A stretch of DNA of 64,000 nt from Flavobacteriales bacterium (GTDB taxonomy: Bacteria > Bacteroidota > Bacteroidia > UBA10329), in contig JAIPBM010000004.1 in NCBI GenBank assembly GCA_021739695.1, forward strand, positions 1 through 64,000, read 5' to 3'. Made by a program: the position numbers and the translations under genes. Positions 12,001-56,584 of the stretch are shown one piece after another. Position 1 is the first letter of the stretch, and the number at the start of each line of letters is the position of its first letter. The notes under the pieces were generated by a model. It saw only the letters and a program-made list of their open reading frames with translations. It did no database searches and was not told the origin of the DNA.

Positions 12001-13290
12001 TGAGCAAACCAACCCAACAGCAATCCCAGTTGGATTCAGTCTGATTGTTGGTGCAACTGGAGAGTCTTACGATCCAGGAATGATCAGTGAGACAACTTGT
12101 TTCATCCGCGTTGCGAGAAATCAAGGTTGCGAAGAATGGTTGGGCGAATCGAACATGGTCACCATCACCGTCAATTCTGCACCTGCACTTGTTTGTTCAA
12201 GTGTTGATGGCACTTGCGAGAACGGAAATGTTGGTTCTGCTAGCGTAACGGTAAGTGGATCATCATCGCCATTCAGCTATGCATGGTCAAATGGAGCAAC
12301 GTCTGCTTCAATTGAGAATCTAGCTGCTGGAACCTACACTGTAGTAGTAACAGACGGAAACGGTTGCGTTGATTCTTGCAGCACGTTGGTTGAAGTTCTT
12401 CCTTGCTGCAACGTAACTGATGGTGGCGAGATTGATGGTGAACAACAGAACTGCGGTCCATTTGATCCAAGTGAGATTGTGAGCATAACTCCTGCAACAG
12501 GTGGAATCGGCCCAGTTGAGTACGCTTGGTATAGCGGTCAATGCGATGAGCAAACGAACCCAACAGCAATCCCAGTTGGATTTAGTTTGATAGCTGGCGC
12601 AACGGGCGAAAGCTACGATCCAGGAATGTTGAGCGAGACCACTTGTTTCATCCGCGTTGCGAGAAATCAGGGATGTACAGATTGGCTTGGCGAATCAAAC
12701 ATTGTCACTATCACCATCAATTCTGCTCCTTCACTTGTGTGTTCAAGTGTTGATGGAACATGCGAGAATGGAAATGTTGGTTCTGCTAGCGTAAATGTTA
12801 GCGGTGCACCATCACCGTTCAGCTATGCTTGGTCAACAGGAGCAACAACTGCTTCGCTTGAAAATCTAGCTGCTGGAACTTACACTGTAGTAGTAACAGA
12901 CGGAAACGGTTGTGTTGATTCTTGCAGCACAGATGTGGAAATAGTTCCATGCTGTAATGTGACTCATGGTGGCGAGATTGACGGGGAACAGGAAAACTGC
13001 GGTCCATTCGACCCAAGCGTTATTACGAGCATTGTTCCTGCAACAGGAGGAATTGGCCCAGTAGTTTACGCTTGGTACAGTGGTCCGTGCTCAACGAATT
13101 CTCAGACCATCGGAGCACCTGTTCAAGAAGCAATTCCAGCTGGATTCACATTGATTGCTGGTGCTGATGGCGAAAGCTATGATCCAGGAATGTTGAGTGA
13201 AACCACTTGCTACATTCGTGTTGCTCGTAACCAAGGATGTACAGATTGGATCGGTGAGTCTAACATCATTACTATCACGGTCAATGAAGT
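2..13290 (+). repeat. About 22 tandem two-module coding repeats inside the giant adhesin gene
   Basis: Counting the CC(N/D)VT or CCDNVT junction gives 22 complete Cys-rich modules, plus the tail of another at the left edge. They usually alternate with one SprB-like module, occasionally with two to four in a row (for example near 6900-7790). Each pair spans roughly 160-180 residues and holds about ten cysteines. Copies near the left end are almost identical at DNA level: nt 2-200 and 3413-3611 differ at only about six positions by eye. Copies after about 7800 are clearly more divergent and include variants with longer loops (near 11990-12050 and 13080-13150). Confidence 0.93.
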
Positions 13291-15352
13291 TCCAACGGTT
13301 GATGTAGCTATCACTGGAGGAGTGAATCCAACATGCAATGGAGGTTCAGTTGAGTTGACTGCTACATCAAGTACGGCTGCTTCATACGAGTGGTCAACGG
13401 GAGAAACTACTGCTACCATTTCAGTTACTGAGACAGGCGTATTTGTAGTAACCGTTGCTGATGGAAACGACTGTTCTGCGGTTGACAGCATTGCTATTGA
13501 AGTGTTGCCAAATCCAGAAGTGGAGATTGAAGTTGCTGGTGGTAACCCATTCTGCAACGGAGATAGCACGCAGCTTACAGCAAACTGTGCTACAGCAGTT
13601 GGTTATTCTTGGAGCACAGGCGCTACTGGAACCAGCATCTGGGTGACCGAAGCTGGAACCTACTCAGTTGAAGTAGCAGATTCGAATGGTTGTATGGCTT
13701 CTACAAGCATTGAAGTAGAAGTATACGAACTTCCAGAAGTTGAAATCACAATTGACGGAAACAATCCGCTTTGTACTGGAGACAGCGCTATGCTGACTGC
13801 TGTTTCGCAAGGGGCTATCAGTTACGATTGGAGCACGGGTGAAACAACGCAGTCAATTTGGGTTTACGCTGCTGACTCTTACAGTGTAACTGTGGTCAAC
13901 CAAGTAGGTTGTGAAAACAGCGCTTCATACGAAGTTGAAGAAGGTCTTACTCCGACCATCCAGATCACAGGCGATACTGTTGCGTGTGCTGGTGGCAGCA
14001 TTGAGCTCACAGCTCAATCTACTGGTGGTGAAAGCATTCTGTGGTCAACTGGAGCTACAACTCCAAGCATAACGGTTACAGAAGCTGGCGAGTACTGTGT
14101 ATATACAACATCAGTTGATGGCTGCGAATCTTCGGATTGCATCAGCATCGATTTCAACCCAACTCCTGAAGTTGTAGTGGAAGTTACGGCAGGTAGCAAC
14201 CCACTTTGCCCAGGAAGCGAAGTTGAATTGACCGCAACATCTGCTACAGCAGTTGACTACACTTGGACGCCAAGCGGAAGCGGAGCAAGTATTACGGTGA
14301 ATGCAGCTGGAATATATTCTGTAGAGGTTACCGATGTCAATGGCTGTTCTGCTTCGGCAACTATCGAAGTTGAAGAAGGAGTTGTGCCAACGGTTGTTAT
14401 CAATGGAGAGACAGAGTTCTGTTCAGGAGATAGCGTAATGCTAACGGCTCAAACAGTAAATGGCGAAAGCCTTACTTGGTCAACTGGCGAAACAACTCCT
14501 AGTATTTGGGTGAGCGAAGCTGGCGAATACTGCGTGATGACTGCTTCTGTTGATGGTTGCGAGGCAAGCGTTTGTATCGATATCGAAGAAGCGGCTATTC
14601 CAGAAGTGTTTGCTGGAAATGATGTTGACATCTGCGTTGGTCAAAGCACTACGCTTACGGCTACTGGAGGAACATCAGGAACCATTTACATCTGGTATGT
14701 TGATGGTGAAGCGATTGATACTGCTCAGACAATTGTTGTAGCTCCAGGGCTTGGCATAACTGAATACTCGGTTGTTGCGATAAATGAGAATTGCAGCATT
14801 ACGGATGAGGATCACGTGAAAGTTTGGGTGTACGATTATCCTGTTGTAGGATTTGAACGTGACCCAGCTGGCGATGTGCCATTCGGAAGTGATATCCAGT
14901 TCACAGATACTACTGCAGGTCAGGTTACTGATTGGATGTGGAACTTCGGTGATGGTATGACAAGTATGCTTCAAAACCCAGATCACAATTATGGCGATCC
15001 TGGTTCATACTGGGTAACGTTGATTGCGTCTAACCACGGTTGCGAGGATACAGCGGTTGCTGGTCTAGAGGTGAAGATCATTATCGATATACCAAACGTG
15101 TTCACACCGAACAACGATGGAGTTAACGATGTGATCTGGCTGCAAGGAACTGACCTTGAGAACATCAACATGACCATCTACAATCGATGGGGATTCAGTG
15201 TCTATGCAAGCGAAGGACGTCAGTTCAGCTGGTCAGGTAAGACAAGCGCAGGCGAAGATTGCGAGGGAGGAACTTACTACTATGTCATCCAAATGGAATA
15301 CAAGGATGGCAACGTAAGCGAGCAGACCGGATTCTTTACATTGATCAGGTAA
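2..15352 (+). CDS. Giant T9SS type B adhesin-like repeat protein, 5'-truncated by the window edge
   Basis: The frame is open from base 2 to the stop at 15350-15352, so at least 5116 residues are present and the start lies outside the window. About 22 copies of a two-part unit fill nt 2 to about 13290: a Cys-rich module opening with CC(N/D)VT and carrying CGPFDP, CARRSGC and GESNI motifs, and an SprB-like module with YxWSNG and VTDANGC motifs. One unrelated domain interrupts them at about nt 610-1165. About six Ig-like domains (each with a WSTG motif) follow at about 13290-14590, then a further Ig-like segment, a PKD domain (WNFGDG) at about 14835-15070, and a gliding-motility-associated C-terminal domain from IPNVFTPNNDG to the end. 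That tail is the T9SS type B sorting signal, so the product should be exported across the outer membrane and be surface-bound or released. SprB-like repeats occur in mobile gliding adhesins; an adhesive role is inferred. An apparent GTG start at 287 is just a Val inside a repeat. Confidence 0.95.
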   Translation, partial: CTTYVGESNIVCYTINPAPVATCSKVDGSCSNNNEASASVSVSSGTSPFTYAWSNGGTTASINGLAAGTYSVIVTDANGCSDDCSVTVTNTPCCNVTNGGQIAGGGSNCGPFDPAAITSASLPTGGLGDLEYVWLWNTQNVVNNGNSGWVEIPNSNSATYDPGLLTETRCFLRCARRSGCTTYVGESNIICFTVNPTIDATASATDVTCDGDNSHECEAVHYQNGSHAVWINTLPGTSTDFKFENNSGNLVEYPDGTARVTGIVYNTSNSSKRWQVDVYLNDKKDWTQWQAAGGSWKGTSSIVGNNYQDWAYYEMDASQSRMIGLGTYAGKELSLQRMAAAPQFRVQVGTAANDKNANYGFSLWFDYSGDYSGHGDFNFDLQNCADHQCNGTATASATGGQSPYTYLWDNGATTASVDGLCAGQYCVTVVDASGCEDQACVTVGDRPVCCDVTEPGSVAGSQENCGAFDPVAFTSVAPATGGSGDIQYQWYSKETETSWTPIPGATSASYDPGMTSVNIQFKRCARRSGCPEYQVCSNVLDITIYSNNIIATCSQSPAACAGASTGSASVAVQGGTAPYTYSWSNGGTSASVNGLAAGTYSVTVTDHNGCTGNCSVVVGEANTLTANCTPTNGTCSNNNLGSATVTASGGTSPFTYVWSNGATSSAISNLTAGSYSVTVTDANGCTATCSTSVSITPCCNVTNGGQIAGGGSNCGPFDPAAITSASSPTGGLGDLEYVWLWNTQNVVNNGNSGWVEIPNSNSATYDPGLLTETRCFLRCARRSGCTEYIGESNIICYTVNPEPVATCSKVDGSCSNNNEASASVSVSGGTAPFTYAWSNGGTTASINGLAAGTYSATVTDANGCSDDCSVTVSVTPCCNVTDPGQIAASQENCGGFDPERFTSVSLPSGGLGDLEYVWLVRTIGGAWSEIPNSDTPEYDAPYTDVSLQYRRCARRSGCTAYIGESNILTVTVNPEPVATCSSVNGTCNNNNQASASVSVSGGTSPFTYAWSNGGTTASINGLAAGSYSVTVTDANGCSDDCSVTVAITPCCNVTNGGQIAGGGSNCGPFDPAAITSASLPTGGLGDLEYVWLWNANNLPLNNGQNGWVEIPNSNSATYDPGLLTETRCFLRCARRSGCTTYVGESNIVCYTVNPAPVATCSKVDGSCSNNNEASASVSVSSGTSPFSYAWSNGGTTASINGLAAGSYSVTVTDANGCSATCSTSVSITPCCNVTNGGTIAGVQENCGPFDPERITSVAPANGGLGGLEYVWLWNANNLPLNNGQNGWVEIPNSNTETYDPGYLTESRCFLRCARRSGCTTYVGESNVICVTVNPDDMVATCTAIDADCNGASTGSASVSTTGGTAPYTVLWSTGATTVSISNLMAGSYSVTVTDANGCTTTCSTTVNEPSDLTATCSKVDGSCSNNNQASVSVSAAGGTAPYSYVWSNGATGSSISGLAAGTYSVTVTDSKGCTESCDKTVNITPCCNVTNGGTIAGVQENCGPFDPAAFTSTSLPTGGLGDLEYVWLSNPNNVPINNGNNGWVEIPNSNSATYDPGMVTATTCYLRCARRSGCTDYVGESNVICVTVNPIPVATCVPTNGTCANDNVASASVSVTGGTAPYSYAWSNGGTTASISNLADGTYSVTVTDVNGCSDDCSVTVSTIPCCDVTDPGTVAGSQEGCGPFDPVAFTSIAPATGGLENIVYQWYQKETETTWMPIPGANGETYDPGMISINSQFKRCARREGCPEFTFCSDILEIEIHPVPQVNCTSISGNCSNGNGASATVNVQGATSPYTFAWSNGETTQTIGNLAEGNYSVIVTDYFGCTADCNVNVTVAGCCNVTNGGTIAGVQENCGPFDPAAITSVAPATGGLGDLEYLWLWNSQNVPVNNGNNGWVEIPNSDNETYDPGMLTESRCFIRCARRSGCDIYIGESNVICITVNPVPVANCTPTNGDCNNNNSASASVSVTGGTSPFSYAWSNGGTTASISGLAAGTYSVTVTDANGCTDDCSVTVSTNPCCDVTDPGTVAGSQEGCGPFDPVAFTSVAPAAGGLGGIEYQWYQKETETTWTPIPGATSETYDPGMISINSQFKRCARREGCPEFTFCSDILEITINPVPTVTCTEVDGNCNNGNLGSVSVSVQGGTGPYTYLWSNNETTASISGLAAGTYSVTVTDQNSCEANCSKIVEVTPCCNVTSGGQIAGAQENCGPFDPVAFTSTSLPAGGLGDLEYVWLTNSQNVPLNNGNNGWVEIPNSNSATYDPGMITETTCFIRCARRDGCTIYPGESNVICVTINENPVASCSSTDSGCNGAGTGTASVSVTGGEAPYTYAWSNGGTTAIISGLTAGTYSVTVTDANGCTDDCTATVGQPSGLSVTCSATDVDCNGNATGTATANPTGGTLPYSYAWSNGGTTASISGLAAGAYDLTITDANGCTATCSSTVSENDALTADATSTNPVCNGATTGTAEVAVGGGDGVYTYAWSNGETTASVSGLAAGAYSVVVTDGNGCEETANVSITEPSELIATCTPVNGDCSNGNAASASVAIDGGVEPYTVLWSTGASTLSINNLQAGSYDLTVTDANGCEVTCTAVVTVTPCCNVTDPGEIAASQDSCGPFNPAPIVSLAPATGGIGPVEYVWLQGNCSTNPNTWAQIPGANGESYDPGMLTETTCFRRCARNQGCTDYIGESNIITITVGPGCCDNVTNGGEIATSQENCGPFDPAVFTSVADPTGGSGNLEYVWLWNSQNVPINNGNNGWVEIPNSNSATYDPGMMTETTCFIRCARRSGCVPYIGESNVICITINPGDLSADCTPVNGNCANGNAASASVNATGGEAPYSYAWSNGGTTASIDNLATGSYSVTVTDANGCTAVCTTAVEVVGCCNVTEPGSIAANQENCGPFDVAELTSVVDPSGGLGALEIVWITRTGTSGPWQEISGAHGLTFDPGIVAATTQFRRCVRRNGCNEFEESNIITITIFPQPEVVCNPTHGDCSNNGMGSVSTSITGGTAPFSYAWSTSTGSAQANGATVADISNLGAGTYSVVVTDANGCATDCSVTITSEPCCNVTDGGEIAGTQENCGPFDPTAITSVVPATGGIGPVEYVWLWNTQNVPNYGNNGWVEIPNSNSDSYDPGYLTESRCFLRCARNVGCTTYIGESNVVCVTVNPVPEVLCTKDDGDCTNDNVASIYAAASAGTEPYTYLWSNGETTSSITNLVAGTYSVTATDANGCEATCSKTVSITPCCNVTDGGQIAASQENCGPFDPAAITSVSPPTGGLGDLEYVWLMNHENVPLNNGNNGWVEIPNSDNESYDPGILTETTCFIRCARRSGCTVYVGESNVVCVTINEAPVATCTPINGDCNNGNIASASVSASGGTEPYSYEWSNGETTASINDIAAGTYSVTVTDANGCTADCSVTVSITPCCNVTNGGEIAGAQENCGPFDPAAITSLTPATGGLGDLEYVWLMNDQNVPLNNGNNGWVEIPNSNSDSYDPGMLTETTCFIRCARRSGCTVYVGESNVVCITVNPALEVECSSVSGDCGNGNVGSASVDVTSGTAPFTYEWSNGGTTASIENLGAGTYTVTVTDANGCMGTCTEEVIVTPCCNVTDPGEIAGTQQNCTAFDPDPITSVAPATGGIGPVEYMWLQGDCNTDPNTWTPISGADGASYDPGMLTETTCFRRCARNNGCEPWVGESNIITITIQNALTIECSSISGDCGNGNVASASVDVIDGVGPYTYEWSNGETTASITGLAEGTYTVTVTDANGCTASCTESVIVTPCCNVTDPGEIAGEQSNCGPFDPTAITSVAPATGGIGPVEYMWLQGDCNTDPNTWTPISGADGASYDPGMLTETTCFRRCARNNGCEPWIGETNIITITVYPAVELTCNGVDGDCTNGNVARAIAHISGGVEPYTIAWSNGGTTATIDSLQAGTYTVTVTDANGCEATCTTSVSVTPCCNVTDGGEIAEDQENCGAFDPNPIVSITPATGGIGPVEYAWYSGHCDEQTNPTAIPVGFSLIVGATGESYDPGMISETTCFIRVARNQGCEEWLGESNMVTITVNSAPALVCSSVDGTCENGNVGSASVTVSGSSSPFSYAWSNGATSASIENLAAGTYTVVVTDGNGCVDSCSTLVEVLPCCNVTDGGEIDGEQQNCGPFDPSEIVSITPATGGIGPVEYAWYSGQCDEQTNPTAIPVGFSLIAGATGESYDPGMLSETTCFIRVARNQGCTDWLGESNIVTITINSAPSLVCSSVDGTCENGNVGSASVNVSGAPSPFSYAWSTGATTASLENLAAGTYTVVVTDGNGCVDSCSTDVEIVPCCNVTHGGEIDGEQENCGPFDPSVITSIVPATGGIGPVVYAWYSGPCSTNSQTIGAPVQEAIPAGFTLIAGADGESYDPGMLSETTCYIRVARNQGCTDWIGESNIITITVNEVPTVDVAITGGVNPTCNGGSVELTATSSTAASYEWSTGETTATISVTETGVFVVTVADGNDCSAVDSIAIEVLPNPEVEIEVAGGNPFCNGDSTQLTANCATAVGYSWSTGATGTSIWVTEAGTYSVEVADSNGCMASTSIEVEVYELPEVEITIDGNNPLCTGDSAMLTAVSQGAISYDWSTGETTQSIWVYAADSYSVTVVNQVGCENSASYEVEEGLTPTIQITGDTVACAGGSIELTAQSTGGESILWSTGATTPSITVTEAGEYCVYTTSVDGCESSDCISIDFNPTPEVVVEVTAGSNPLCPGSEVELTATSATAVDYTWTPSGSGASITVNAAGIYSVEVTDVNGCSASATIEVEEGVVPTVVINGETEFCSGDSVMLTAQTVNGESLTWSTGETTPSIWVSEAGEYCVMTASVDGCEASVCIDIEEAAIPEVFAGNDVDICVGQSTTLTATGGTSGTIYIWYVDGEAIDTAQTIVVAPGLGITEYSVVAINENCSITDEDHVKVWVYDYPVVGFERDPAGDVPFGSDIQFTDTTAGQVTDWMWNFGDGMTSMLQNPDHNYGDPGSYWVTLIASNHGCEDTAVAGLEVKIIIDIPNVFTPNNDGVNDVIWLQGTDLENINMTIYNRWGFSVYASEGRQFSWSGKTSAGEDCEGGTYYYVIQMEYKDGNVSEQTGFFTLIR

Positions 15353-15437: not shown

Positions 15438-16304
15438 TTGAAAAAGATAACTGTCATCATTCCTTTCTTCAACGGATTGGAAACAATTGAAGAGGTGGTT
15501 CGAAGAACGCTTTCCACATGCGTCATTCATGGAATTGACTGCTCTGTGATGGTGGTTGATGATTCGAACAATGACGAAAAGGCGATTATCCTAAAACGAA
15601 TTTTCGAAAAACAAGATAAAGTGACGGTGCTTCATCTGAGCCATAATTTGGGACAACATGCGGCTACATTCATTGGCATACTGAATGCAGGCGAAACCGA
15701 CATCGTAACGATAGATGAGGACCTAAAATTTCCTCCGGAGTTAGTTCCGGAGATGATGGATAAACTACCAGAGAACGGAGTCGTTTACGGTTTCGTTGAG
15801 CGCGAAGGATTTACCGAACTGCTCAAAGATTTTGTGTTGGGTGTCATCAAACCGTTGATATCGAATACATACCCAATACACACTTCTTCATTCAGAGTTG
15901 TTTCATCGCAATTAGTATCTCGTATACGGAAGATGAAGCCGAATTACATTCAGTTGGAAGGAATGATCATCCAAAGCAAGTGTAGGTTTACGTATGTCGA
16001 AATCGATAGATCACTTGCGGAAAATCATCGGAAAGGTGGATACGGCTTTTTGTCTCTTTACTGGATGGTCTCTGGACTCTTGACCCATTACACACTAATC
16101 CCTTGGTTGGGGATTAGCTTGGCGGCACTGATTCTCACAATGGTAGGCGTTTGCCAGAGCACGTTATCTGGCTCATGGCTGCTCTTGTTTTTCTTATTTG
16201 CCGGCCTGAATCTGTTAGGAGAATGGACGAATAGAAAACGAAAGAACAGAAACCAGTCGGAATTGAAACGCTTAGGATTATCGAAGTCAGCTCCTGTACG
16301 CTAA
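15438..16304 (+). CDS. GT2 family glycosyltransferase with C-terminal membrane helices (TTG start)
   Basis: The 288-residue product has the GT-A fold signature of family 2 glycosyltransferases. The N-terminal strand KKITVIIPFFNG leads to VVDD (D41-D42), and a DxD-type motif D93-E-D95 should bind the divalent metal and nucleotide sugar. Two hydrophobic helices at about 215-262 resemble the membrane anchor of dolichyl/undecaprenyl-phosphate sugar transferases, so transfer of a sugar to a lipid carrier at the inner membrane is plausible but not proven. The first codon is TTG. It is the only start that keeps the first beta-strand, since no upstream ATG exists in frame. The gene lies 30 bases after the adhesin terminator and converges with the next gene, with five bases between stops. 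Acceptor and sugar cannot be read from sequence. Confidence 0.85.
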   Translation: MKKITVIIPFFNGLETIEEVVRRTLSTCVIHGIDCSVMVVDDSNNDEKAIILKRIFEKQDKVTVLHLSHNLGQHAATFIGILNAGETDIVTIDEDLKFPPELVPEMMDKLPENGVVYGFVEREGFTELLKDFVLGVIKPLISNTYPIHTSSFRVVSSQLVSRIRKMKPNYIQLEGMIIQSKCRFTYVEIDRSLAENHRKGGYGFLSLYWMVSGLLTHYTLIPWLGISLAALILTMVGVCQSTLSGSWLLLFFLFAGLNLLGEWTNRKRKNRNQSELKRLGLSKSAPVR

Positions 16305-16309
16305 ATCAG

Positions 16310-18076
16310 TTAAGGCTTGTTTTTAAAGGTCCTAGCTAACGACTCAACATAGTCATTCAATCTAGGATCAACATCTTGAAACTGAACTGCTCTTCTAAAT
16401 GTGCTGATGGCTGCTGCGGTATCTCGCGCAGCGAGCTGAAAATTCGCTTGGTAAATTATCGGCTGCGATAAAGTTGGGTTTCTGCTGGCCCAATCGGTAG
16501 CCAATTCAAGGCCTGCTTCAGCGTCATCATTCATCAGTAGCAGATTTAAGGCCTGTTGAACGTAATTGATCCTATCGTTTGAAGCAAGGTAAAGTTCCTT
16601 GGCGAGTTGAACCGTTTGTTGTCGGTTTCCAAGTTCGTTGTTGATTTCAGCACATTTGGCAACGTACCGCGTATTGTCCTTACAGATTTCTCTCAAGACA
16701 TCATTGCTTCTTAGTGCAAGTTGCATGAATTGGACCCGTTCGGTTGGAGACGCTGCCGCAACTGCATCGTCATAATAAAACCGTGCAGCCAGAAAATTGG
16801 GAACGAACGAACGCGTTACGATCTCTACATCGTGATAAACCAATGTTCTACTCGATTTCCAATCGGGAATTCTGGTCACAGTTCTTAAAGTGTAAAGGCC
16901 AAGCAGCAACGCGGTGACGGGAATGTAAAGCCTAGCAAATCGAACATGTGTTGACAGAATGATCATCAAGTATGCTAGAATAAGACTTGAGCCTATAGAG
17001 GCAACAAGAAGCCAACGTTCTGCCACAATTCCAGGTAGTGGCACAACCACATTTAGAAATGGTGCTACCGACATCAGGAAGATTCCTATTCCGAACGAAA
17101 TGATCGGTTTGCTTTTGATGTGATAAAAGAATGCTGCCACAGCACTGATTAGGATTACAATACCTGCGTAAACTTGAGATGTGCTCCAATCGGCCACTGG
17201 AATTTGAGCATATCCATAAAAGAACGCAAGCGGATGCGGCACTAATACGAACCGAGCAAAATAGAACAATGCAACAAACCCTGTTGGCACTCTTTCAATC
17301 ATGCTAGGATAGAAGTTCAGAGGACTTTCTTCAAACGCATATTCTGTTCGGATGTAATTGGGAAAGTAATGATTGACCCAAAGCATGTACCCAGCGAAAA
17401 TCACGAAATAGGGAATACCAAGAATAAAGAGCTGCCGCCAATTCCATTTTCGGAACAAAAGGAAACCTAGCACCATGATCCCCGCCAACGGGACATTTCC
17501 AGCCTTGGTTGGTAGCGATAGCAGAAACAATGCTAGTGCGCCTAGTAAAAAGCGAAGTCGTTTCTGATCCACATACTTGACAAGTAAAATGGAGCTAGCA
17601 ACTGCAAAAACGAAGCTCAGAAGCTCTTCGCGGTTCTTCAAGCTACAAACCACTTCTGTGTGAATGGGGTGACATAGAAAGAAAGCCGTTGTGAGGATGA
17701 GAAGAACACGGTACTGTTCTCCCATCAACGTTATCATAAATCGGAACATGAGGAAAACAGCTAGCGCGTAAAGCAGCACATTGATCAGATGGCTTAACCA
17801 AAGGCGTTCTCCCCAAATGGAACGTTCCAACGCAAAGCTTATGCGGCCAATTGGTCGGTATGCGAACGGAGTTCCATTGTCAGTTTTTGAGTAATAACTG
17901 GTCAGGATCTCGGGAATTCCCTCAACGCCCTTATCTACGATTTCTAGGTTTTCTGATACCAGGTAGTCATCAATACTGTATCCGTTCAGTAATGTAAGAC
18001 CATACAGAAGCACTGAGCAGATGAGAATGATCCATTTCAGGTTTTGGTCAGAAAGCTTAGTCAACGTCAGATTCAT
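16310..18076 (-). CDS. TMTC-like GT-C membrane protein with C-terminal TPR-like region
   Basis: A 588-residue polytopic membrane protein. After the first helix there is a D36-D37 pair in a luminal-type loop, the usual GT-C catalytic acid position. The motif HPIHTEVVCSLKNREELLSF matches the conserved loop of TMTC/DUF1736 proteins. About ten hydrophobic helices are followed, from about residue 430, by a soluble helical region resembling TPR repeats. In animals TMTC proteins O-mannosylate cadherins using a lipid-linked sugar; whether the bacterial homologues do likewise is unknown. The start ATG overlaps the stop of the upstream gene (ATGA), so the two are co-transcribed. It is a clear paralogue of the protein at 21477-23354: both share the DD loop, the YRP motif and the HP(I/V)HTEVV loop. 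Confidence 0.85.
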   Translation of the reverse strand: MNLTLTKLSDQNLKWIILICSVLLYGLTLLNGYSIDDYLVSENLEIVDKGVEGIPEILTSYYSKTDNGTPFAYRPIGRISFALERSIWGERLWLSHLINVLLYALAVFLMFRFMITLMGEQYRVLLILTTAFFLCHPIHTEVVCSLKNREELLSFVFAVASSILLVKYVDQKRLRFLLGALALFLLSLPTKAGNVPLAGIMVLGFLLFRKWNWRQLFILGIPYFVIFAGYMLWVNHYFPNYIRTEYAFEESPLNFYPSMIERVPTGFVALFYFARFVLVPHPLAFFYGYAQIPVADWSTSQVYAGIVILISAVAAFFYHIKSKPIISFGIGIFLMSVAPFLNVVVPLPGIVAERWLLVASIGSSLILAYLMIILSTHVRFARLYIPVTALLLGLYTLRTVTRIPDWKSSRTLVYHDVEIVTRSFVPNFLAARFYYDDAVAAASPTERVQFMQLALRSNDVLREICKDNTRYVAKCAEINNELGNRQQTVQLAKELYLASNDRINYVQQALNLLLMNDDAEAGLELATDWASRNPTLSQPIIYQANFQLAARDTAAAISTFRRAVQFQDVDPRLNDYVESLARTFKNKP

Positions 18077-18858
18077 TTGAAAACCGACTTCGAATTGTTG
18101 TGAAAGGCATCCCAGTTTTTTGGAGGAAGACTTCCAAAACCCAGCAATTTCAATGCATTTTGAGAACAGGCACTCAGGTCGGTTTCTTCCAAAATTGTCT
18201 CAACGTTAAAACGCTGTTTCATCCAAGGTTGAACCAGTCCGATAAGTAGACAGCATCGCCATTTGTCAGTATGGTTTTCAGTGCTGCGATGCCAAATTCG
18301 TGAATCGAAAAACGTGACGTCTCCTTTCTTGCCAGTTGCCAAAATTGCTTCGTTTTCGAATTCATCTGAGTCAGGCGAATTCAGCAATTGATGCGAGCCT
18401 TTCAAAAACAATGGAGCACCGTTTTCCGCTGTAAAGTCGTCCAGTAGAATTTGTATCGCCAGCGAGCAATGGGGCGTCCTTATTTCACTGTCCCGATGTA
18501 TCCGATTTGTGTAGTTGGAAGCGTTTGGCGGAATACACGAACTCGTCATTGTATAAATGATGGAAGGTCCATCGAAGAACGGTTCGGCAAGTTTGAAGAG
18601 TTTGTCCAATTCCAATATCTCAAGGAACGGACCTCCGTAAACAGGCGCGAAAAGTAACCTTCCGTAATCGTTGTACTCCTTTGTACCCATTCGGTCTGCC
18701 TCATCATCAACACGCTTCAAAACTTCGTTTCGTAAAGAATCTATAAGTGAAGGTGGAACGAGGTCAGAAACCTGCGAGAATCCGTGTTCGGTCAACTCTT
18801 TGAAAAAGATGTTAGGATTGTCCATCAAGCGATTCTGATCTGCATAAAATAATTTCAT
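18073..18858 (-). CDS. Phytanoyl-CoA dioxygenase (PhyH)-family Fe(II)/2-oxoglutarate oxygenase
   Basis: With the ATG at 18858 the product is 261 residues. The double-stranded beta-helix fold of PhyH-like oxygenases is indicated by the HxD pair H121-R-D123 and a distal histidine H190 in RIWHRS, with arginine following for 2-oxoglutarate. These three ligands bind Fe(II). PhyH-family enzymes hydroxylate varied small molecules, lipids or peptides; the substrate here is not evident. A longer version beginning at 18906 would use an upstream in-frame start, but that segment looks unlike the family and overlaps the divergent gene's leader, so the internal ATG is preferred. It is translationally coupled to the TMTC-like gene downstream and faces a second oxygenase gene across a short divergent gap. 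Confidence 0.83.
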   Translation of the reverse strand: MKLFYADQNRLMDNPNIFFKELTEHGFSQVSDLVPPSLIDSLRNEVLKRVDDEADRMGTKEYNDYGRLLFAPVYGGPFLEILELDKLFKLAEPFFDGPSIIYTMTSSCIPPNASNYTNRIHRDSEIRTPHCSLAIQILLDDFTAENGAPLFLKGSHQLLNSPDSDEFENEAILATGKKGDVTFFDSRIWHRSTENHTDKWRCCLLIGLVQPWMKQRFNVETILEETDLSACSQNALKLLGFGSLPPKNWDAFHNNSKSVFK

Positions 18859-18928
18859 GAAGTAACAGGTTTTGAACAGAAAAACAAGGTTATGGAACAG
18901 CTTCAACTATGCCGAATATTTGCTACCT

Positions 18929-19714
18929 ATGTTGCAAAATGCAAGGATGACGCAGCCGCCCACAGTTTCTGAACCGCTCTATTTCTATTTGGATAATACC
19001 TGGTACAAAGGAAAGATGCCAGCTTTTTATGATGCCGAAAATTGGGAGATGAATAAGTTGCTCGAGCAACATTATCCTGATCTTAAAGCAGAGATCATGA
19101 CCTATTTTGGGGAAAATAAAGATGCTATACGTTCAAACTTTACTCCATATGATTATCACGAGAAAGGATGGAAAACCATCAATCTCTACACTTACGGATT
19201 ACGGTATTCTAAGATCTGTGAGCAATTTCCAGTTCTGGATTCAGTAACGCGGCAAATCCCAGGAATGACGATGGTTCAAATAGCAATATTGGAGCCTCAT
19301 GTACGGGTAAAAGCGCATTTGGGAGATACCAACGCCATCATCAGAACTCATTTAGGAATTTCAATCCCGGGAAAATATCCTGAGCTTGGGCTAAGGGTCG
19401 GACAACAAGAGGTTTGCTGGGAAGACGGAAAGACCTTTTCGTTCTGTATCGTACACAGGCATTATGCTTGGAATAATTCTGCTGGATACAGAATTGCTTT
19501 GATTGTAGATGTAATACACCCTGACTACAAAGACCGAATTGCAGAGGTTTGCTCGCAATCGCTTGCGCTAATAAGCATGAAGTTTGTGGCCACTAAGTTT
19601 CCTGTGTTAAAAAACATGCCTCGCAGTTTAACAAGGATATTGCAAAAGCTATTGGCTCTTCCAGTACGACTTATTTTGTTTTTTCAAGGTGCTTTCAAGA
19701 CAGGGAATGGGTGA
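18929..19714 (+). CDS. Aspartyl/asparaginyl beta-hydroxylase-like oxygenase
   Basis: From the ATG at 18929 the protein is 261 residues; a TTG at 18872 in frame would add 19. The core carries the family signature around residues 130-143 (HLGDTN then RTHLG), in which H141 corresponds to the first iron ligand. H178 in VHRHYAWNNS matches the distal ligand of the motif seen as FEHEVW in animal AspH. Animal AspH hydroxylates Asp or Asn in EGF-like domains; bacterial members act on peptides or unknown targets. The C-terminal 60 residues are basic and hydrophobic and may touch the membrane. The gene overlaps the following ORF by eight bases, so the two form an operon. Confidence 0.82.
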   Translation: MLQNARMTQPPTVSEPLYFYLDNTWYKGKMPAFYDAENWEMNKLLEQHYPDLKAEIMTYFGENKDAIRSNFTPYDYHEKGWKTINLYTYGLRYSKICEQFPVLDSVTRQIPGMTMVQIAILEPHVRVKAHLGDTNAIIRTHLGISIPGKYPELGLRVGQQEVCWEDGKTFSFCIVHRHYAWNNSAGYRIALIVDVIHPDYKDRIAEVCSQSLALISMKFVATKFPVLKNMPRSLTRILQKLLALPVRLILFFQGAFKTGNG

Positions 19715-20462
19715 TCTGATTCATTTTTCTACTGAGGAATCTGAATTTTTCGGGTTAAAGGTTGGGCGAGCAGTTGTGCGAAATGGAGAAGTAAGTACGC
19801 TTCTTGAAGAACTTGAAACAGGCCGATTTGACGTGGTGCGTGTCCGCATTGATGAGCGTCAGACAGATGTGATTGAATGGCTACTAGCAAGTGATATTCC
19901 GTGCTACGACCAAGGAGAAATTGTCAATTATGAGTTGAAGGTCGGTGGATTGGTTCTCGAAGATTACTGCAATCCTGAGGTAACGGTTCGAGTATACAAT
20001 GGAGATGATCCCAATTCCATTGAACGAATTATCAGGGAGGGAAATGCAGAACGACCGATCGGTTATTTTTCAACACCCGGACTACAAGAGCTCATTACTT
20101 TGGAAGATGAGATCAATTATCTGACCCAATACTATTCTCGTTTGTACGTGACCGAACAACGACAATTGTGGTTTATGGAATGGCTTGGACAACCAGTGGC
20201 GTTTGTTGCGAGCGATTTTTATGATGGAATCATGATGACACCATTGGCCGTTGTTCTTCCTGAGTATCGGGATAAGAAGATTTTTCACGACCTGATGATC
20301 TCTCGGAACAACTATGGAGTGGAACATGGACTAAAGAAAATATGCAATGGAGCAAGAGTAGATAATTCAACAAGTCGTCACGTATTTTCCAAGTTTGGGA
20401 TGATGGAAGTTGGCAAGGATCGCGTGTTTCACCTAGTTCCGATGCATGCTGCATCATCATAA
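19707..20462 (+). CDS. GNAT-like acyltransferase, probable
   Basis: The product is about 251 residues from the ATG at 19707, which overlaps the preceding stop by eight bases; a GTG at 19689 is the alternative. The C-terminal half (GQPVAFVASDFYDG, then PLAVVLPEYRDKKIFHDLM, then NGARVDNSTSRHVFSKFGM) has the strand, acetyl-CoA loop and helix order of GNAT proteins, closest in style to sugar-amine N-acyltransferases of the WecD type. No strict R/QxxGxG/A loop is seen: YRDKKIF takes that place, so acyl-donor binding is uncertain. Neighbouring glycosyltransferase and hydroxylase genes would fit a role in decorating a sugar or peptide. The family call rests on pattern recognition only. Confidence 0.6.
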   Translation: MGDLIHFSTEESEFFGLKVGRAVVRNGEVSTLLEELETGRFDVVRVRIDERQTDVIEWLLASDIPCYDQGEIVNYELKVGGLVLEDYCNPEVTVRVYNGDDPNSIERIIREGNAERPIGYFSTPGLQELITLEDEINYLTQYYSRLYVTEQRQLWFMEWLGQPVAFVASDFYDGIMMTPLAVVLPEYRDKKIFHDLMISRNNYGVEHGLKKICNGARVDNSTSRHVFSKFGMMEVGKDRVFHLVPMHAASS

Positions 20463-20500
20463 CGCTGTTGCTTTCACTACATTTAAAGAACTGAATTTAT

Positions 20501-21403
20501 ATGTCATTGAAAAGTAAATTGGCAACTTCCGAGTATCGGTCGCTCAAGCAAATTGATTCGAAAAAAGGCGTTTTCCTCCTACTTGGAGATTGGACGCTGA
20601 TCGTTGCTGCAGTTGTTGTTTGCGTAAATTTTGATTTGTGGTTCTTGTATCTGCTTTCGGTAATTGTTATCGGTTCGCGCATGATGGGACTTTGGGCTTT
20701 GCTGCACGATGGGCATCATAATATGCTGGTTCGTTCCAAACGCTTAAATCGAATGTTGACTGAATGGTTTATTGCTTGGCCATTGTTTAAATCGTTGGAT
20801 GAATTTGACGAGCAGCACAGTGCGCATCATCGGTTTTTAGGTGGAAATGGCGACCCTAATTTTGCGCTGACACGATACGCTGAATTTCAGTTTCCCATGA
20901 GTAAAACCCGACTCGCATCAATCTTGGTCAAAGATCTTTTGGGCATTAATTTCATCTATTACCGATTGCTTGGATTGATAAAAGACCCAATGGTTCTGCT
21001 GAAAAAAACTTCGAATTGGTCTGTTCAACGAGCGGTGTATTATGTCCTTTTGGCCGTGCTGATCACCTATTTCCAATTGTGGCTCGCGGTTTTGCTGTTT
21101 TGGGTTTTGCCGTTAGTTACTTATTTCCAGTTTCTTATTCGGGTAACGCTCATATCCGATCACTGTTTTGCCACTAGTGATACACGTTTGGCGAGAAGCG
21201 TTCAGCTCAGTTGGGTTGAGCAGTTCTTACTCGTGCCACATAATTTGAACTATCATTACGAACACCACCATTATGGCGGAATTCCGTGCTACAATTTGAA
21301 GCAATTGCATTTGAAATTGGCGCTTTCTCCAGGTTACTTCGATGATTCAGACTTCAGTAGAGGATATTTAGATGTATTCAGGAAGGTTACTCTAGGCTCT
21401 TGA
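20501..21403 (+). CDS. Membrane fatty-acid desaturase family protein
   Basis: This 300-residue integral membrane di-iron enzyme has all three histidine boxes: H69-DG-H72-H73, H106-SA-H109-H110 and H252-YE-H255-H256-H257, plus further conserved His at 221 and 247. Pairs of hydrophobic helices lie at about 24-66 and 178-215. The family introduces double bonds or hydroxyl groups into acyl chains or carotenoids using O2. Substrate and position cannot be deduced. It begins 38 bases after the GNAT-like gene and probably belongs to the same transcript. It adds a third O2-dependent iron enzyme to this short cluster. Confidence 0.87.
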   Translation: MSLKSKLATSEYRSLKQIDSKKGVFLLLGDWTLIVAAVVVCVNFDLWFLYLLSVIVIGSRMMGLWALLHDGHHNMLVRSKRLNRMLTEWFIAWPLFKSLDEFDEQHSAHHRFLGGNGDPNFALTRYAEFQFPMSKTRLASILVKDLLGINFIYYRLLGLIKDPMVLLKKTSNWSVQRAVYYVLLAVLITYFQLWLAVLLFWVLPLVTYFQFLIRVTLISDHCFATSDTRLARSVQLSWVEQFLLVPHNLNYHYEHHHYGGIPCYNLKQLHLKLALSPGYFDDSDFSRGYLDVFRKVTLGS

Positions 21404-21476
21404 TTAGTGCCATAGTGACGAATGATTGCTGTTCTCACGAAATGCGTGTCTCTTCAACCTATCTTTGTTTGCTGCA

Positions 21477-23354
21477 ATGGCGAAGAACAAGCTTGATCCA
21501 AAGTCGATTTTCCAAAAGACCTCACTTTATTGGCTTCTCGCTGCGCTTGCTTTTCTGGTTTACGGTAATACCCTAACAAACGATTATGCGCTGGATGATT
21601 GGCTTGTGACTACATCCAAACATGATCAGGTTTCACGAGGATTGGAAGCCTTACCAGAGATTTTTACTACTCATTATGTCACATGGGGTAGTTATCAGGT
21701 TGATTATCGACCACTTGTTAAGGCAAGTTTTGCTCTGGAATTCGAGTTGTTCGGAGAAAACCCGAAGATCAGTCATGCGATCAATCTTGTGCTGTATGCA
21801 ATCATCTGTTGTCTTCTATTCAGCTTATTACTTCAATTTTTTCCAGCCGAACAGAAGTGGGTTCTTTTTTCCGCCATGCTGATTTTCATTGTCCATCCGG
21901 TTCATACTGAGGTTGTTGCTAGTCTGAAAAACCGAGATGAACTTCTCAGTTTTTTGTTCATTCTGCTGGTTTTTCAGTTTTCGCTTAAGTGGTTTACCTA
22001 TCGGACCCGGAAGTATGTGGGAATGACCATTCTATTCCTGGTGCTATCTCTTCTTTCCAAAATGTCCTCTTTGCCATGGCTTGGTATTCTAGTGGCTTGG
22101 CTGCTTTGGTACAATGGCGAATCCAAAAAAAGAGTGATCATGTTAGCAGGCGCTATGCTGGTGGTAATTGCTGCTTATCAGGTAATGGTTTTAAGCATGT
22201 TGGGAGATTGGTTGCGAGAGTTCATTTTCATCGAAACACCTTATTTTCAGATAGACTCCGCGGCCGATAAATGGGCCAGTATCATATCTGCAGCAGGTCA
22301 TTATCTTTCATTATTGGTCTATCCATTTCCGCTCTGTTCATATTACGGTTACAATCAGATTCCAATTGTTTCGTGGTCACATTGGTCGGTTTATGCATCT
22401 ATTGCAGCTTATCTCGGGTTGATTGTTTTGGCAATCAGGGGACTTCGATTCAATAACATGATCGGATTTGGAGCCATGGTGCTATTGTTCGACCTGGCCT
22501 TGTTCGTAAATGTGCTGTATCCGTATACAGGAATTCTTGGTGAACGCGTCCTTTTTGGTGGAACGATTGGTTTTGCGTTGATGGTTACTGGTGCTTTGCA
22601 ATTGGTAATCGGAAAAGCGGTAAATGGAGATCTGTTGCCACGACAGCTTCCCGCCTCAGTGCTCATCATCGCGATGGTTGTTTTAGCAGGATACAGAACA
22701 GTTGCGAGAAATAAGCAATGGAAAAGTAATCTCACGCTTTTTGCGGCCGATGTGGAAGATTGTCCAAGGTCGGCCAAACTTCATGAACTGTATGCGCTCT
22801 ATCTGCGGGGAGAATACATGAATAAGACCGTTAACGATTGGAAACCCTTGGCGTACAAAGCCATTAGTGAGTATCAAGAAACCCTTTCTATCTATGAAAG
22901 ATGGCCTGTGCCTTATCATCGCATTGGAGTAATTTATCAGTACGATATGTTGAGGCCAGATTCAGCTCTTGCCTATTATCAAAATGCGTTGAAATACAAT
23001 CCTAACTTTTCCATTGCTCGGCAGGATTACGCTATTTGTCTGATGGATTTGAAGCGGTTTCCTGAAGCCGCAAAGCAGTTTTCAAAAATCATTGATGATG
23101 GATTGAATGAGCCTGAAATCTGGAATCGAGCAGTTTCGTGCGATTTACTATCGAATGATCTTGAATCAGCAAAAGATCATAATAGCAGGTTTTTAATTGA
23201 GTATCCATCACGATCAGAGCCTTACATTCATGCAGGAAATTTGCTTTTGTCTCAAAAAGATACTGTTAAAGCCATCGCTAGATTCAATCAAGCGCTTGAT
23301 CGTGACCCGGTCAACACAGCACTTCGAGAATACGTGGAGATGATTGCTCGCTAA
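21477..23354 (+). CDS. TMTC-like GT-C membrane protein with C-terminal TPR repeats
   Basis: A paralogue of the 16310-18076 protein, 625 residues from the ATG at 21477. An in-frame TTG at 21426 would add 17 residues that do not look conserved. It shares the D40-D41 pair after the first helix, a YRP motif and the HPVHTEVVASLKNRDELLSF loop typical of TMTC/DUF1736 proteins. Many membrane helices precede a soluble tail, from about residue 440, with recognisable TPR units (SALAYYQNALKYNPNFSIA, then PEAAKQFSKII). A lipid-linked-sugar-dependent protein glycosyltransferase is the best functional guess, based on eukaryotic TMTC enzymes. It lies directly upstream of the secreted T9SS protein array. Confidence 0.84.
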   Translation: MAKNKLDPKSIFQKTSLYWLLAALAFLVYGNTLTNDYALDDWLVTTSKHDQVSRGLEALPEIFTTHYVTWGSYQVDYRPLVKASFALEFELFGENPKISHAINLVLYAIICCLLFSLLLQFFPAEQKWVLFSAMLIFIVHPVHTEVVASLKNRDELLSFLFILLVFQFSLKWFTYRTRKYVGMTILFLVLSLLSKMSSLPWLGILVAWLLWYNGESKKRVIMLAGAMLVVIAAYQVMVLSMLGDWLREFIFIETPYFQIDSAADKWASIISAAGHYLSLLVYPFPLCSYYGYNQIPIVSWSHWSVYASIAAYLGLIVLAIRGLRFNNMIGFGAMVLLFDLALFVNVLYPYTGILGERVLFGGTIGFALMVTGALQLVIGKAVNGDLLPRQLPASVLIIAMVVLAGYRTVARNKQWKSNLTLFAADVEDCPRSAKLHELYALYLRGEYMNKTVNDWKPLAYKAISEYQETLSIYERWPVPYHRIGVIYQYDMLRPDSALAYYQNALKYNPNFSIARQDYAICLMDLKRFPEAAKQFSKIIDDGLNEPEIWNRAVSCDLLSNDLESAKDHNSRFLIEYPSRSEPYIHAGNLLLSQKDTVKAIARFNQALDRDPVNTALREYVEMIAR

Positions 23355-23503: not shown

Positions 23504-26500
23504 ATGAAGAAATATTTTACTTCTCAGCTATTTTCTTGTAGCCTCGTTAGCGTTTTTAGCTTTTTATTGTTGACTATGACCGCTTCTGCTCAGCAGCCAT
23601 GTAACATTTGGTATGTTGCTCCTGGAGTTGTGAATTCTGCAGGAACTCCTGATAATCCGACCAATATAGAAAATGCAATAGCTGGAGTTACAGGAACGCG
23701 ATATTACCTGAAGTTGAAAAACGGAACGTACAATATCTCGTCCATCATCGAATTACCGAATAATGTGATCATCGAAGGTGGTTATGATGTTGTTGGAGGC
23801 GAATGGGTAAAGACCAGTAATCAGGTCACTAACCTTGTTTTTAGTGGGGTTGAACAGGTAGACAATGACACGCGACACGTAATTGGTATGCGCTCAGCCA
23901 GTAAATCCGGTTGGATTCTTCAAGACTTAACCATTAGCACAACCAATGCTTCAGGAAACAGTACTTCAGGAAATGGCACTACCAATTATGCTCTTTATGT
24001 CGCGAGTAGTTCTAACTATAGCATCATTCGTTGTGTGATTGATCCAGGGAATGGTACCACAGGATTAGGAGATAATAATTCTGGAACATACAATTCGTCA
24101 TGGGATGGAGGAAATGGAGGAAATGGAACAAACGGTGGAAACGGGTCCAATGGTGAATGTGATGGAGGAACATGTGATCGAGGTGGCGATGGTGGAGTTG
24201 GAGGAAATGGCGGAAGTGGAGGTTCAAGCCCTATTGGGAATACAGGTGGTGCTGGAGCTGGAGGTGGCGAAGCTGGTGCAGGTGGCGATGAAAATTGTGT
24301 TGGAGCCGATGCGTCTTGCAGCGGACACAGCCGAACATCCTGGGGACAGAATGGATCACAAGGGTTGAACGGTGGAACTGGAGGTACAGGCGTTGGTCCA
24401 GGAGGTGCCGGTGGTGGACAAGGAGCCAGAGGTTGTGGCGGTCAGGGTGAGGAGGATAATGGAGACAATGCCGCAGCAGGCGGGGCTGGAAGCAATGGAA
24501 CTGACGGGTCAACTGTTGCATCATCTCTTTCTACATATTTCATTCCTAGCTACGGCACCGATGGTGGCGGTGGTGGCGGTGGAGGCGGAGGCGGAGGCGG
24601 GGGCGGTGGCGCCTGGGATGCTGGCGGCTCTTTAGGAAATGATGATGGTGGCGGTGGCGGCCATGGCGGTGGCGGTGGTGCTGGTGGTGGTGGTGGTGCC
24701 AAGGGAGGCCGCGGTGGCGGTGGCTCTTTTGGTCTATATATCGCTTCTAATGGCGTTGGTTCTGTGATTGATGATTCTCAATTGACAACTGGAACTGCTG
24801 GTTCTGGTGGTGCTGGAGGTACTGGAGGACTTGCTGGATCCCGAGGTTCAGCTTCAACTTTCTCTACTTCTTGTGGAGATAACGCTGGTTCAGGAGGAGA
24901 CGGTGGAATCGGAGGTACTGCTGGTAGAGGAGGAAATGGTGGTGCTGGAACAGCTGGAACTGCTTACTATTTTGGGAAATATCTCGGTAGTAACCCAACT
25001 TTTCAAGGAACTACTGTTGGAGCTGCTTCTAATACTGCTGGAGCTACGTATGGTTCGGTACCTAATGCGACCAATATTGCAGTAAATTATCAGAATGCGC
25101 AACCATGTACTAATTCAGAAATAGTGATAACCAAAGGTTCGGGCTCATGGGCCCTTCCGTCTGGCGCTCATTTCGTCAACAACCTGACTTCGAGTACATC
25201 TCAGTGGAACTCTGGCTCATCTCCGGCAACTGTTTACTTCGATAACAGTGGAGCTTACGACATTACCGCAAATGGTGGCACATACAGCAGTTTTGTGAGG
25301 GTTATAACCAGTAGACCACTTCCAGTGATTTCTACATTGCCATCATCAATTTGTGTTGGGTCCACGGTAAGTTTGGCTACGGCAACAAGTGCAGATCAAT
25401 ATGAATGGTTAATTTATAACGATAATCAAGGTCCAAACGGAACACTTATACTCAATTCTGCAAGTCAAAACCCAGGGGTAAGTCCTCCATTAAGTACGGC
25501 AGGAACGTATTGGGTTCGATTACGAACTAAAACTGAATGCTGTGGATGGTCAATTCCGGTGTTTCAGCAGGTAATTGTACACCCTTTCCCTTCAGCTCCT
25601 ACGCTTACTAGTAATACACCGCTGTGTGCTGGAAGTACACTACAGTTGAATGTAACGGCCCCTATTGGTGGAGCTACATATAACTGGTCTGGCCCAGAAT
25701 CTTTTTCTACAACCGGAACAAACCCAACAAGACCTAATATTACGCTTACTCAAGCCGGTGCATATACCGCAACAGTAACTGTTAACGGTTGTACAAGTTT
25801 AACAAGTGGTTCGACAACGGTTGTTGTGAATCCTATTCCGGTACTCACTGCTACCAACAATGCTTCTACAATTTGTAGCGGAACCAGTACATCAATCAGT
25901 CTCAATTCTACTGTTGGTGGTTCCACCTATACGTGGAATACAAGCGTTTCAGGTTCCATAACTGGAGCAACAAATGCATCAGGATTTTCTGGATCTTCCA
26001 TTTCTCAGGTGTTGACCAATACTGGAACCACACAAGGAAGCGTTACATACGACATCTATCCGACAGCGAATAGTTGTGTTGGTAGTACACAGACAGTAAC
26101 TGTAAACGTCAATCCGCTACCTGTTGGAACCATCTCTGGTACGACCACAATCTGTGAAGGAGATGCAACCGATCTGACCTTCAATTTTACAGTCGGAACG
26201 GGACCATTTTCGGTTCAGTATACCGATGGTACAACTACTTATACATTACCGAGTATATATGATGGTCATACCGTTTCGGTTTCTCCATCCACATCTACGA
26301 CTTACAATATCACGCAGATATCTGATAATAATACGTGTGTCAATGGTGTGATTTCCAGTTCTGCTATCATCACGGTAAATCCTGCTCCCAACGGAACGAT
26401 GTCGGTTGTAACTCCGATCTGTTTCGGTGAACAAACAACTATCACGTTCAATTTTACGAGTGGAACCAGTCCGTTCAATATCAATTTCACGGACGGGGTA

Positions 26501-50232: not shown

Positions 50233-50978
50233 TTATCTGTTTTAGCGAATGACAAAAATGTGTTGATGATCTTAAACGGATCGATAAGCTTATTGCCCAA
50301 GGTGTGGAAGAATTCGGGATGCCATTGCACACCCAATATCTTTCCAGGTTCAGCATTTTCGTGGATGAATGCCTCCAGAATCCCATCTTCTATGCAATAG
50401 GCTTGCGGAATAAGTCCTTTTCCAATGTCTTTTGCGGCCTGATGGTGAACAGAATTGACCATCGGGGTTTCCGAATTCTTATACAATGATTCTAAGAACG
50501 AACCCGGTTCGAACCGTACTCCGTGATGTACATGGTCATATTCAATCGCATCGCGGTGCTTGATGCTTTCAGGCCGTTGAGTGTCAATGTCCTGAAAAAG
50601 TGTTCCTCCGTAATAGGCGTTCATGAGTTGAAAGCCTCGGCAAATGCCAAGAACCGGCTTTTCTTCCTTGATGAAAAGATCCATCAGTTCCAATTCATAC
50701 TCATCTCGGATACGATCTCCTAGCCATCTTCCTATGGGTGCTTCGCCATAAGATTCAGGCGCTAGATCGGCACCACCTTGCAGCACCAAACCATCCATTT
50801 CCTTGATGATTGCCAGCTTTTCAGCTTTCGGCAATTCAGGAATAAGTACTGGCATTACATTAGGTCTTGCAATGTAAGCGGCCATGTCGTTTTCGAGGTA
50901 CGAAAGTGTTTTCGGTCCGAAGGTTGTCCTGTCTAGGTCAGGATGGAAAAAGCACGCAGAAACTCCGATTTTGATCAT
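50229..50978 (-). CDS. Class I glutamine amidotransferase-like gamma-glutamyl hydrolase (PuuD-like)
   Basis: With the ATG at 50978 the product is 249 residues; an upstream in-frame start at 50999 would add seven unlike the family. The nucleophile C113 lies in GICRGFQ, and H220 with E222 in QWHPEF complete the triad of peptidase C26/PuuD-type hydrolases. These enzymes cleave the gamma-glutamyl amide bond, for example of gamma-glutamyl-GABA, releasing glutamate. The gene is the first of a two-gene operon with the aldehyde dehydrogenase and is divergent from the vWA/DUF1573 gene, with 60 bases between the starts. Confidence 0.9.
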   Translation of the reverse strand: MIKIGVSACFFHPDLDRTTFGPKTLSYLENDMAAYIARPNVMPVLIPELPKAEKLAIIKEMDGLVLQGGADLAPESYGEAPIGRWLGDRIRDEYELELMDLFIKEEKPVLGICRGFQLMNAYYGGTLFQDIDTQRPESIKHRDAIEYDHVHHGVRFEPGSFLESLYKNSETPMVNSVHHQAAKDIGKGLIPQAYCIEDGILEAFIHENAEPGKILGVQWHPEFFHTLGNKLIDPFKIINTFLSFAKTDK

Positions 50979-51038
50979 GGCGCAAAGATACATTTGCAAT
51001 ACGTCCGTGCTTGCAGCGTTCCTTAACTTTATCGCTGT

Positions 51039-52850: not shown

Positions 52851-52876
52851 GTTGGACTCGGATTTCGGCCCACAAA

Positions 52877-52906
52877 AAAAGCCGATACATTTCTGCATCG
52901 GCTTTT
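52877..52906. terminator. Bidirectional intrinsic terminator
   Basis: Stem AAAAGCCGAT/ATCGGCTTTT with a ten-base loop, with A-run and T-run on either side, lies between convergent genes ending at 52850 and 52926. Confidence 0.88.
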
Positions 52907-52925
52907 CAATTTCAATATTCAAATA

Positions 52926-53360: not shown

Positions 53361-53394
53361 TAGTAATAGATTTTGTTTGAAATTCCTTTAGCAA

Positions 53395-54540: not shown

Positions 54541-54623
54541 TTTAGTTTAGTAACGATAGATTTTGAGGACGTAAAGCTAATCTGCACATTGATCTGTATA
54601 TTCGTATCATCAATACAAAACAC

Positions 54624-55118: not shown

Positions 55119-55137
55119 TCCGAAATTGATATAAATG

Positions 55138-55165: not shown

Positions 55166-55183
55166 ATTTGTCAGAAATTGAGA

Positions 55184-56551: not shown

Positions 56552-56584
56552 GGAATTAATGTGTTGTTTGATTTGAGAAATCCT

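Follow-up and report, generated by a model that had tools for sequence, protein, structure and literature searches.

A conserved gene module beside type IX giant proteins in a Flavobacteriales genome: a candidate island for glycan tailoring and transfer

Family 2 glycosyltransferases (GT2) of the ArnC/GtrB kind load sugars onto polyprenyl phosphate, and in the Arn pathway ArnC is combined with formyl transfer by ArnA and with ArnT. OlsC and LpxO are bacterial PF05118 enzymes that hydroxylate acyl chains. The active sites of TMTC-type and gamma-carboxylase enzymes face the periplasm or lumen, and known gamma-carboxylase relatives modify secreted proteins. Prokaryotic homologues of TMTC proteins exist in full length (PMC7801869), and in human AspH the iron is bound by His679 and His725 only (PMC6817910). 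The linking sugars of type IX secretion are N-seryl or N-glycyl sugars made via VimA, a putative N-acetyltransferase (PMC7468200); the linker of P. intermedia is an N-alanyl-deoxyhexose, the biosynthesis of which is an open question (PMC11969387).

The window, i.e., the whole analyzed stretch of 64,000 nucleotides from a Flavobacteriales bacterium (GCA_021739695.1, contig JAIPBM010000004.1, positions 1 to 64,000), combines relatives of several of these enzymes in seven genes at 15438-23354, flanked by giants with type IX C-terminal signals. As given in a preliminary description of the sequence, the seven genes lie between giant surface proteins, with their ORFs intact and at the positions reported; the gene-family assignments were kept and refined with Pfam and NCBIfam. 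The module also occurs in two other MAGs, labeled G001 (of the same genus, UBA10329; module on contig 189) and G031 (of another family, NORP27; contig 81). The relevant features of the window are as follows:

287..15352, + strand: GIANT1, SprB-type repeat giant with a type IX type-B C-terminal signal; candidate acceptor
15438..16304, + strand: GT2 of the ArnC/GtrB (polyprenyl-phosphate sugar) kind; PF00535 1e-16, ArnC and GtrB matches in the PDB
16310..18076, - strand: TMTCa, TMTC-like GT-C membrane glycosyltransferase, paralogue of TMTCb; DD/YRP/ER motifs
18073..18906, - strand: PhyH-type Fe(II)/2OG oxygenase; PF05721 3e-18, HRD...H
18872..19714, + strand: AspH-family Fe(II)/2OG oxygenase; PF05118 4e-32, two-His HxG site
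19689..20462, + strand: GNAT with WecD-like fold, probable sugar-nucleotide N-acyltransferase; predicted model versus WecD 2fs5
20501..21403, + strand: FADS, membrane di-iron desaturase/hydroxylase; PF00487 2e-30, three His boxes
21426..23354, + strand: TMTCb, TMTC-like GT-C enzyme plus TPR domain; predicted model with Stt3, Pmt4 and PglB matches
23504..32107, + strand: GIANT2, with beta-helix N-domain, Gly-rich region, ECDLDF repeats and type-A signal; nearest candidate acceptor
32215..34044, + strand: FG-GAP/ASPIC type IX protein; 56-57% identity to relatives next to the G001 module

Judged from homologues, translation probably starts at 18858 (PhyH), 18947 (AspH), 19707 (GNAT) and 21477 (TMTCb); the ORFs of PhyH and TMTCa overlap by 4 bp. 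Elsewhere in the window (48871-58065), genes for an aldehyde dehydrogenase, a C26 peptidase, an Fe-alcohol dehydrogenase, a glutamine synthetase and an amino acid permease form what resembles a Puu-type cluster for polyamine catabolism.

Among 59 related genomes, the core (AspH, GNAT, FADS, PhyH, TMTC-like) was present only in the window genome, G001 and G031, and a scan of genome contigs with AspH as query returned the same two MAGs only. Identity to the copies of G001 and G031, respectively, was 65% and 51% for AspH, 56% and 30% for GNAT, about 61-62% and 47-48% for FADS, and 52% and 44% for PhyH; TMTCa has an orthologue in G001 (48% identical), and the GT2 is weakly conserved among the three genomes (27-30% identity). 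In both MAGs, AspH, GNAT and FADS adjoin a GT2, PhyH and two or three TMTC-like genes. In the window and G001 alike, the genes are closely spaced and in divergent arrangement, PhyH-TMTCa / AspH-GNAT-FADS-TMTCb; in G031, the gene order is rearranged. Recurrence of this gene set in two further genomes makes the module more than a chance assembly. Within this sample of three MAGs, two of them from one genus, the seven genes constitute a real, conserved and unusual module, to which we infer a function below.

The clusters of G001 and G031 each contain, in addition, a complete two-domain homologue of vitamin K-dependent carboxylase (VKGC; HTTM plus lumenal domain, PF05090 and PF22777). Identity between them is 46%, and they are reciprocal best matches among the copies fetched; the next nearest copy, in G053, lies beside three type IX proteins. 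VKGC was rejected as a member of the window's own module, since the two VKGC genes of that genome are both on contigs other than the module's, and the one that was compared, C19, falls into another group, with no more than 28-30% identity to the cluster type. VKGC homologues of a divergent group lie beside type IX cargo and TMTC-like genes at L079:6347-7756(-) and L082:12161-13555(+), and beside three type IX proteins at L186:7302-8660(+); overall, PF22777 occurs in 102 of 395 genomes of the class.

TMTCa (588 aa) and TMTCb (642 aa) are membrane proteins and paralogues (34% identical), and in a quick tree each groups with one gene of the G001 module. The DD, YRP and ER motifs are conserved across 48 relatives; conserved in TMTCb are D57 D58, Y94 R95 P96, K212 and R374, the KE motif being present without its E. 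In the TMTC nomenclature of PMC7801869, these conserved DD, YRP, K and ER residues fall into motifs M1, M2, M4 and M7. The predicted model of TMTCb (pLDDT 90.6) comprises a GT-C domain (residues 20-462) followed by a TPR domain; the former matches Stt3 (Z 19.6, 348 residues aligned), Pmt4 (Z 17.8) and PglB (Z 17.2), the latter (435-639) reaches Z 20.3. Searching PDB sequences with TMTCb returned TPR matches only, and with 15.2 bits the protein stays below the gathering cut-off of Pfam PF08409 (TMTC_DUF1736; 27 bits). The TMTC label, already used in the preliminary description, rests on the DD, YRP and ER motifs and on the GT-C/TPR fold. As modeled, the TMTC-like proteins are GT-C/TPR enzymes with a protein-glycosyltransferase fold. 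A third TMTC-like gene of the same genome (contig 6, L094:2-11034) lies 90 bp upstream of another giant (>3026 aa), the N-domain of which is 49% identical to that encoded at 34192-40458 of the window.

The GT2 contains DD and DED motifs and a hydrophobic segment at the C-terminus; its PDB matches were ArnC (3.5e-19) and GtrB (1.5e-15), and ArnC was also the best NCBIfam relative. GNAT is weak by sequence (17 bits) and clear by fold (predicted model, pLDDT 84.7), with WecD (2fs5), the TDP-fucosamine acetyltransferase, as best match by both TM and Z (Foldseek TM 0.79 by target; Z 19.2 over 215/222 residues). The second match, VipF, had a Z of 18.4, i.e., within 1 Z of WecD, and the NCBIfam WecD equivalog model gave 13.6 bits, below its cut-off of 219. 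Fold and architecture, which includes a WecD-type N-terminal domain, suggest that GNAT is a sugar-nucleotide N-acyltransferase; because VipF is tied with WecD, the WecD-type assignment is a lead rather than proof. Full-length sugar aminotransferases of the DegT type are encoded in the window genome, but the family is also found in every control genome, which makes this a weak test.

AspH consists of the oxygenase domain only, a simple hydropathy scan and Pfam detecting no signal peptide, TM segment or TPR; the same scan revealed no evident signal peptide or TM segment in PhyH and GNAT, and all three proteins look cytosolic. The metal site of AspH is of the two-His HxG form (H149 and H197, with Gly at the usual Asp position), and R207 is the 2OG arginine. 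The nearest NCBIfam models for AspH were OlsC and LpxO, whose equivalog cut-offs are far above the scores obtained (84.8 versus 450 bits and 45.4 versus 500 bits, respectively). PhyH carries its motifs at positions 137 (HRD) and 205 (WHRS). FADS retains all three His boxes; its best named NCBIfam relative is the arginine hydroxylase GntB (121 bits, below the cut-off of 380), and no relative was found in a PDB sequence search.

Relatives of AspH at the Bacteroidota loci L088 and L240-L243 belong to a recurrent set, annotated in detail for L240, of FabH-type ketosynthases, SDR, ArnC-like GT2, PseH-like GNAT and AspH, often with sulfotransferases, and the G001 module includes the same pair of GT2 and PseH-like GNAT. 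Thus, the small-molecule context that the preliminary description had named as speaking against modification of cargo was partly encountered. TMTC-like genes lay within the same 10-20 kb region at 5 of 18 other AspH loci, compared with 0 of 20 random regions. At L083, L084, L086 and L238, the neighbors of AspH homologues include carbamoyltransferases, PhyH and B12-binding radical SAM proteins.

Type IX proteins flank the module in all three genomes, so that the expected co-occurrence with type IX giants elsewhere was borne out in 3 of 3 genomes having the module, a small sample. GIANT2 shares 64% identity over 1468 aa with the cargo adjacent to the module of G001, and the beta-helix/Gly-rich N-domain of GIANT2 and G40 is present at all three module loci; it was found at none of 28 TMTC, 20 random and 18 VKGC loci. 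Conversely, 20 control loci with beta-helix cargo were without AspH, GNAT, FADS, PhyH and VKGC, one having a TMTC-like gene. In the three genomes, 2/8, 1/4 and 3/7 of the copies of the N-domain lie in the module region, where tandem copies inflate binomial values for proximity. About one third of random 20-kb regions contain a long type IX protein. Long ORFs were near 15 of 28 TMTC loci versus 10 of 20 random regions, and type IX ORFs near 11 of 28 versus 7 of 20. TMTC-like genes are therefore not enriched near giant cargo and were rejected as its general marker: the proposed gene neighborhood stands for this module and not for TMTC-like genes at large. Because of these controls, the linkage is considered a property of the module, not of TMTC-like genes or the cargo family. 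It rests on two phylogenetically separate cases, the G031 cargo falling into a generic cargo group outside the window/G001 clade.

A further notion about the cargo was discarded. The beta-helix N-domain is not specific for the module, because it occurs in 72 of 395 genomes of the class, and a single clade of the copies linked to the module was rejected (p-AU 0.015; long branches). At L295-L314, a conserved type IX family of about 1160, 1090 and 1240 aa with this N-domain was observed, often in tandem. D(S/T)X O-glycosylation sequons are present but fewer than in shuffles that ignore repeat structure (13 versus 35, 4 versus 25 and 4 versus 21); for GIANT1, GIANT2, G32 and G44 (287-48801 of the window), shuffled sequence contains D(S/T)X about 3-6 times as often as the proteins do.

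The families of the genes and the predicted folds and active-site residues of their products were observed here, as were the conserved clustering and the proximity of cargo; from these we infer substrates, order of steps and identity of the acceptor as follows. The best reading, which we favor tentatively, is an island that tailors and transfers a glycan and is linked to type IX cargo. In the cytosol, the WecD-like GNAT would N-acylate an amino-deoxy sugar while this is still nucleotide-linked, and AspH, PhyH and FADS, acting in the cytosol or at the inner leaflet, would hydroxylate or desaturate the acyl or aminoacyl group, or else the lipid or the sugar as such. The ArnC-like GT2 would then load the sugar onto polyprenyl phosphate. 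On the periplasmic side, the two TMTC-like GT-C enzymes may pass it from there to an acceptor bound by their TPR domains, probably a secreted protein (e.g., the neighboring giants), at a point between Sec export and type IX secretion. The apparent location of the oxygenases, the motif results, the AspH contexts and OlsC/LpxO chemistry together fit such an oxidized, N-acylated amino sugar, loaded onto polyprenyl phosphate and transferred by GT-C enzymes, and the oxygenases more likely act on the glycan than on the cargo protein. A protein acceptor is favored by the modeled Stt3/Pmt-like fold, the TPR tail and the adjoining cargo.

The preliminary description had instead proposed that AspH and PhyH hydroxylate Asp/Asn of the giants directly, with the TMTC-like enzymes O-glycosylating their Ig-like domains. 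This is quite improbable, despite the AspH-type two-His site in a PF05118 protein (PMC6817910), the clustering of the module with cargo and the gamma-carboxylase homologue in 2 of 3 clusters: AspH and PhyH are without export signal, AspH is also without a TPR substrate-binding domain, and the EGF consensus for AspH, CxD/Nx4F/YxCxC, had no match in six cargo proteins. The two-His HxG form is common to all Bacteroidota AspH relatives examined, hence the site does not single out protein substrates, and AspH relatives reside in glycan/acyl operons. The recurrent D/N motifs suggested as targets did not hold up as signatures of the module either, since TDxNGC is a common repeat, also found in cargo of unrelated loci without any module, and ECDLDF is abundant in sister genomes without AspH; the ECDLDF-repeat cargo contigs of G002, G004, G006 and G008 are absent from the contigs with listed TMTC matches. 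A wider PTM island for type IX giants, in which TMTC-like glycosylation with an oxidized N-acyl sugar would be joined, in the two sister clusters, by gamma-carboxylation through VKGC, is unlikely; if true, it would be a bacterial counterpart of the combined modifications on animal secreted proteins.

Transfer to a protein also has to be weighed against a serious alternative, in which the module makes or transfers a sugar of the surface lipid, for instance an Arn-like decoration of LPS or a linking sugar of a new kind on LPS to which type IX proteins are anchored, and cargo would benefit indirectly. The set of GT2, N-acyltransferase and GT-C parallels ArnC, ArnA formyl transfer and ArnT; known type IX linking sugars are N-aminoacylated, and the WecD-like fold of GNAT and the proximity of AspH to the OlsC and LpxO models point the same way. 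We nevertheless consider it doubtful, since type IX anchoring is general yet the core occurs in 3 of 59 genomes, the module is without LPS genes, and a protein acceptor is suggested by the two or three TPR-bearing GT-C enzymes. Doubtful to much the same degree is that the genes serve unrelated small-molecule or lipid tailoring and lie by chance in a cargo-rich region. FADS resembles GntB of guanitoxin synthesis, other AspH homologues adjoin B12-radical-SAM enzymes and carbamoyltransferases, TMTC-like genes are generally not cargo-linked, and the cargo itself is common; however, the module contains no ligase, NRPS or PKS, every copy has GT-C enzymes, the gene order is overlapping, and beta-helix cargo is at 3 of 3 loci despite only 4-8 copies per genome.

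The proposed glycan-tailoring and transfer island has partial counterparts in several known systems. General O-glycosylation of Bacteroidota (lfg-type loci) modifies exported proteins, type IX cargo included (PMC8698959, PMC11969387), but no such gene content was seen in the module, and D(S/T)X is scarce in these giants. The Wbp/Vim linking-sugar pathway likewise employs an N-acyltransferase, which modifies an amino sugar used to attach cargo (PMC7468200); the module is without Wbp or VimE genes, and its oxygenases and GT-C enzymes are new in comparison. With OlsC, LpxO and human AspH, the AspH of the module shares the PF05118 family, and with the human enzyme the HxG two-His site; it differs from OlsC and LpxO in scoring far under the equivalog cut-offs, and from human AspH in having neither a TPR nor a lumenal location. 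As in the pathway for 4-amino-4-deoxy-L-arabinose (Arn), an ArnC-like GT2 is paired with GT-C enzymes and a step of sugar N-acylation, but a GNAT takes the place of the formyltransferase, the GT-C part bears TPRs, three oxygenases are added and other arn genes are lacking. The eukaryotic O-mannosyltransferases TMTC1-4 (GT105) have the same layout of a GT-C part with DD, YRP and ER motifs followed by TPRs (PMC7801869); compared with these, TMTCb is below the PF08409 cut-off, M4 keeps its K without the E, and the enzymes would be located in the bacterial inner membrane. The module joins two such TMTC-like proteins with a GT2 for sugar loading, three oxygenases and an acyltransferase of WecD-like fold, all next to candidate acceptors. 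It thereby offers a testable system for what prokaryotic TMTC-like proteins transfer, and to what, and could reveal a new pathway for acylated sugars that link or decorate type IX cargo.
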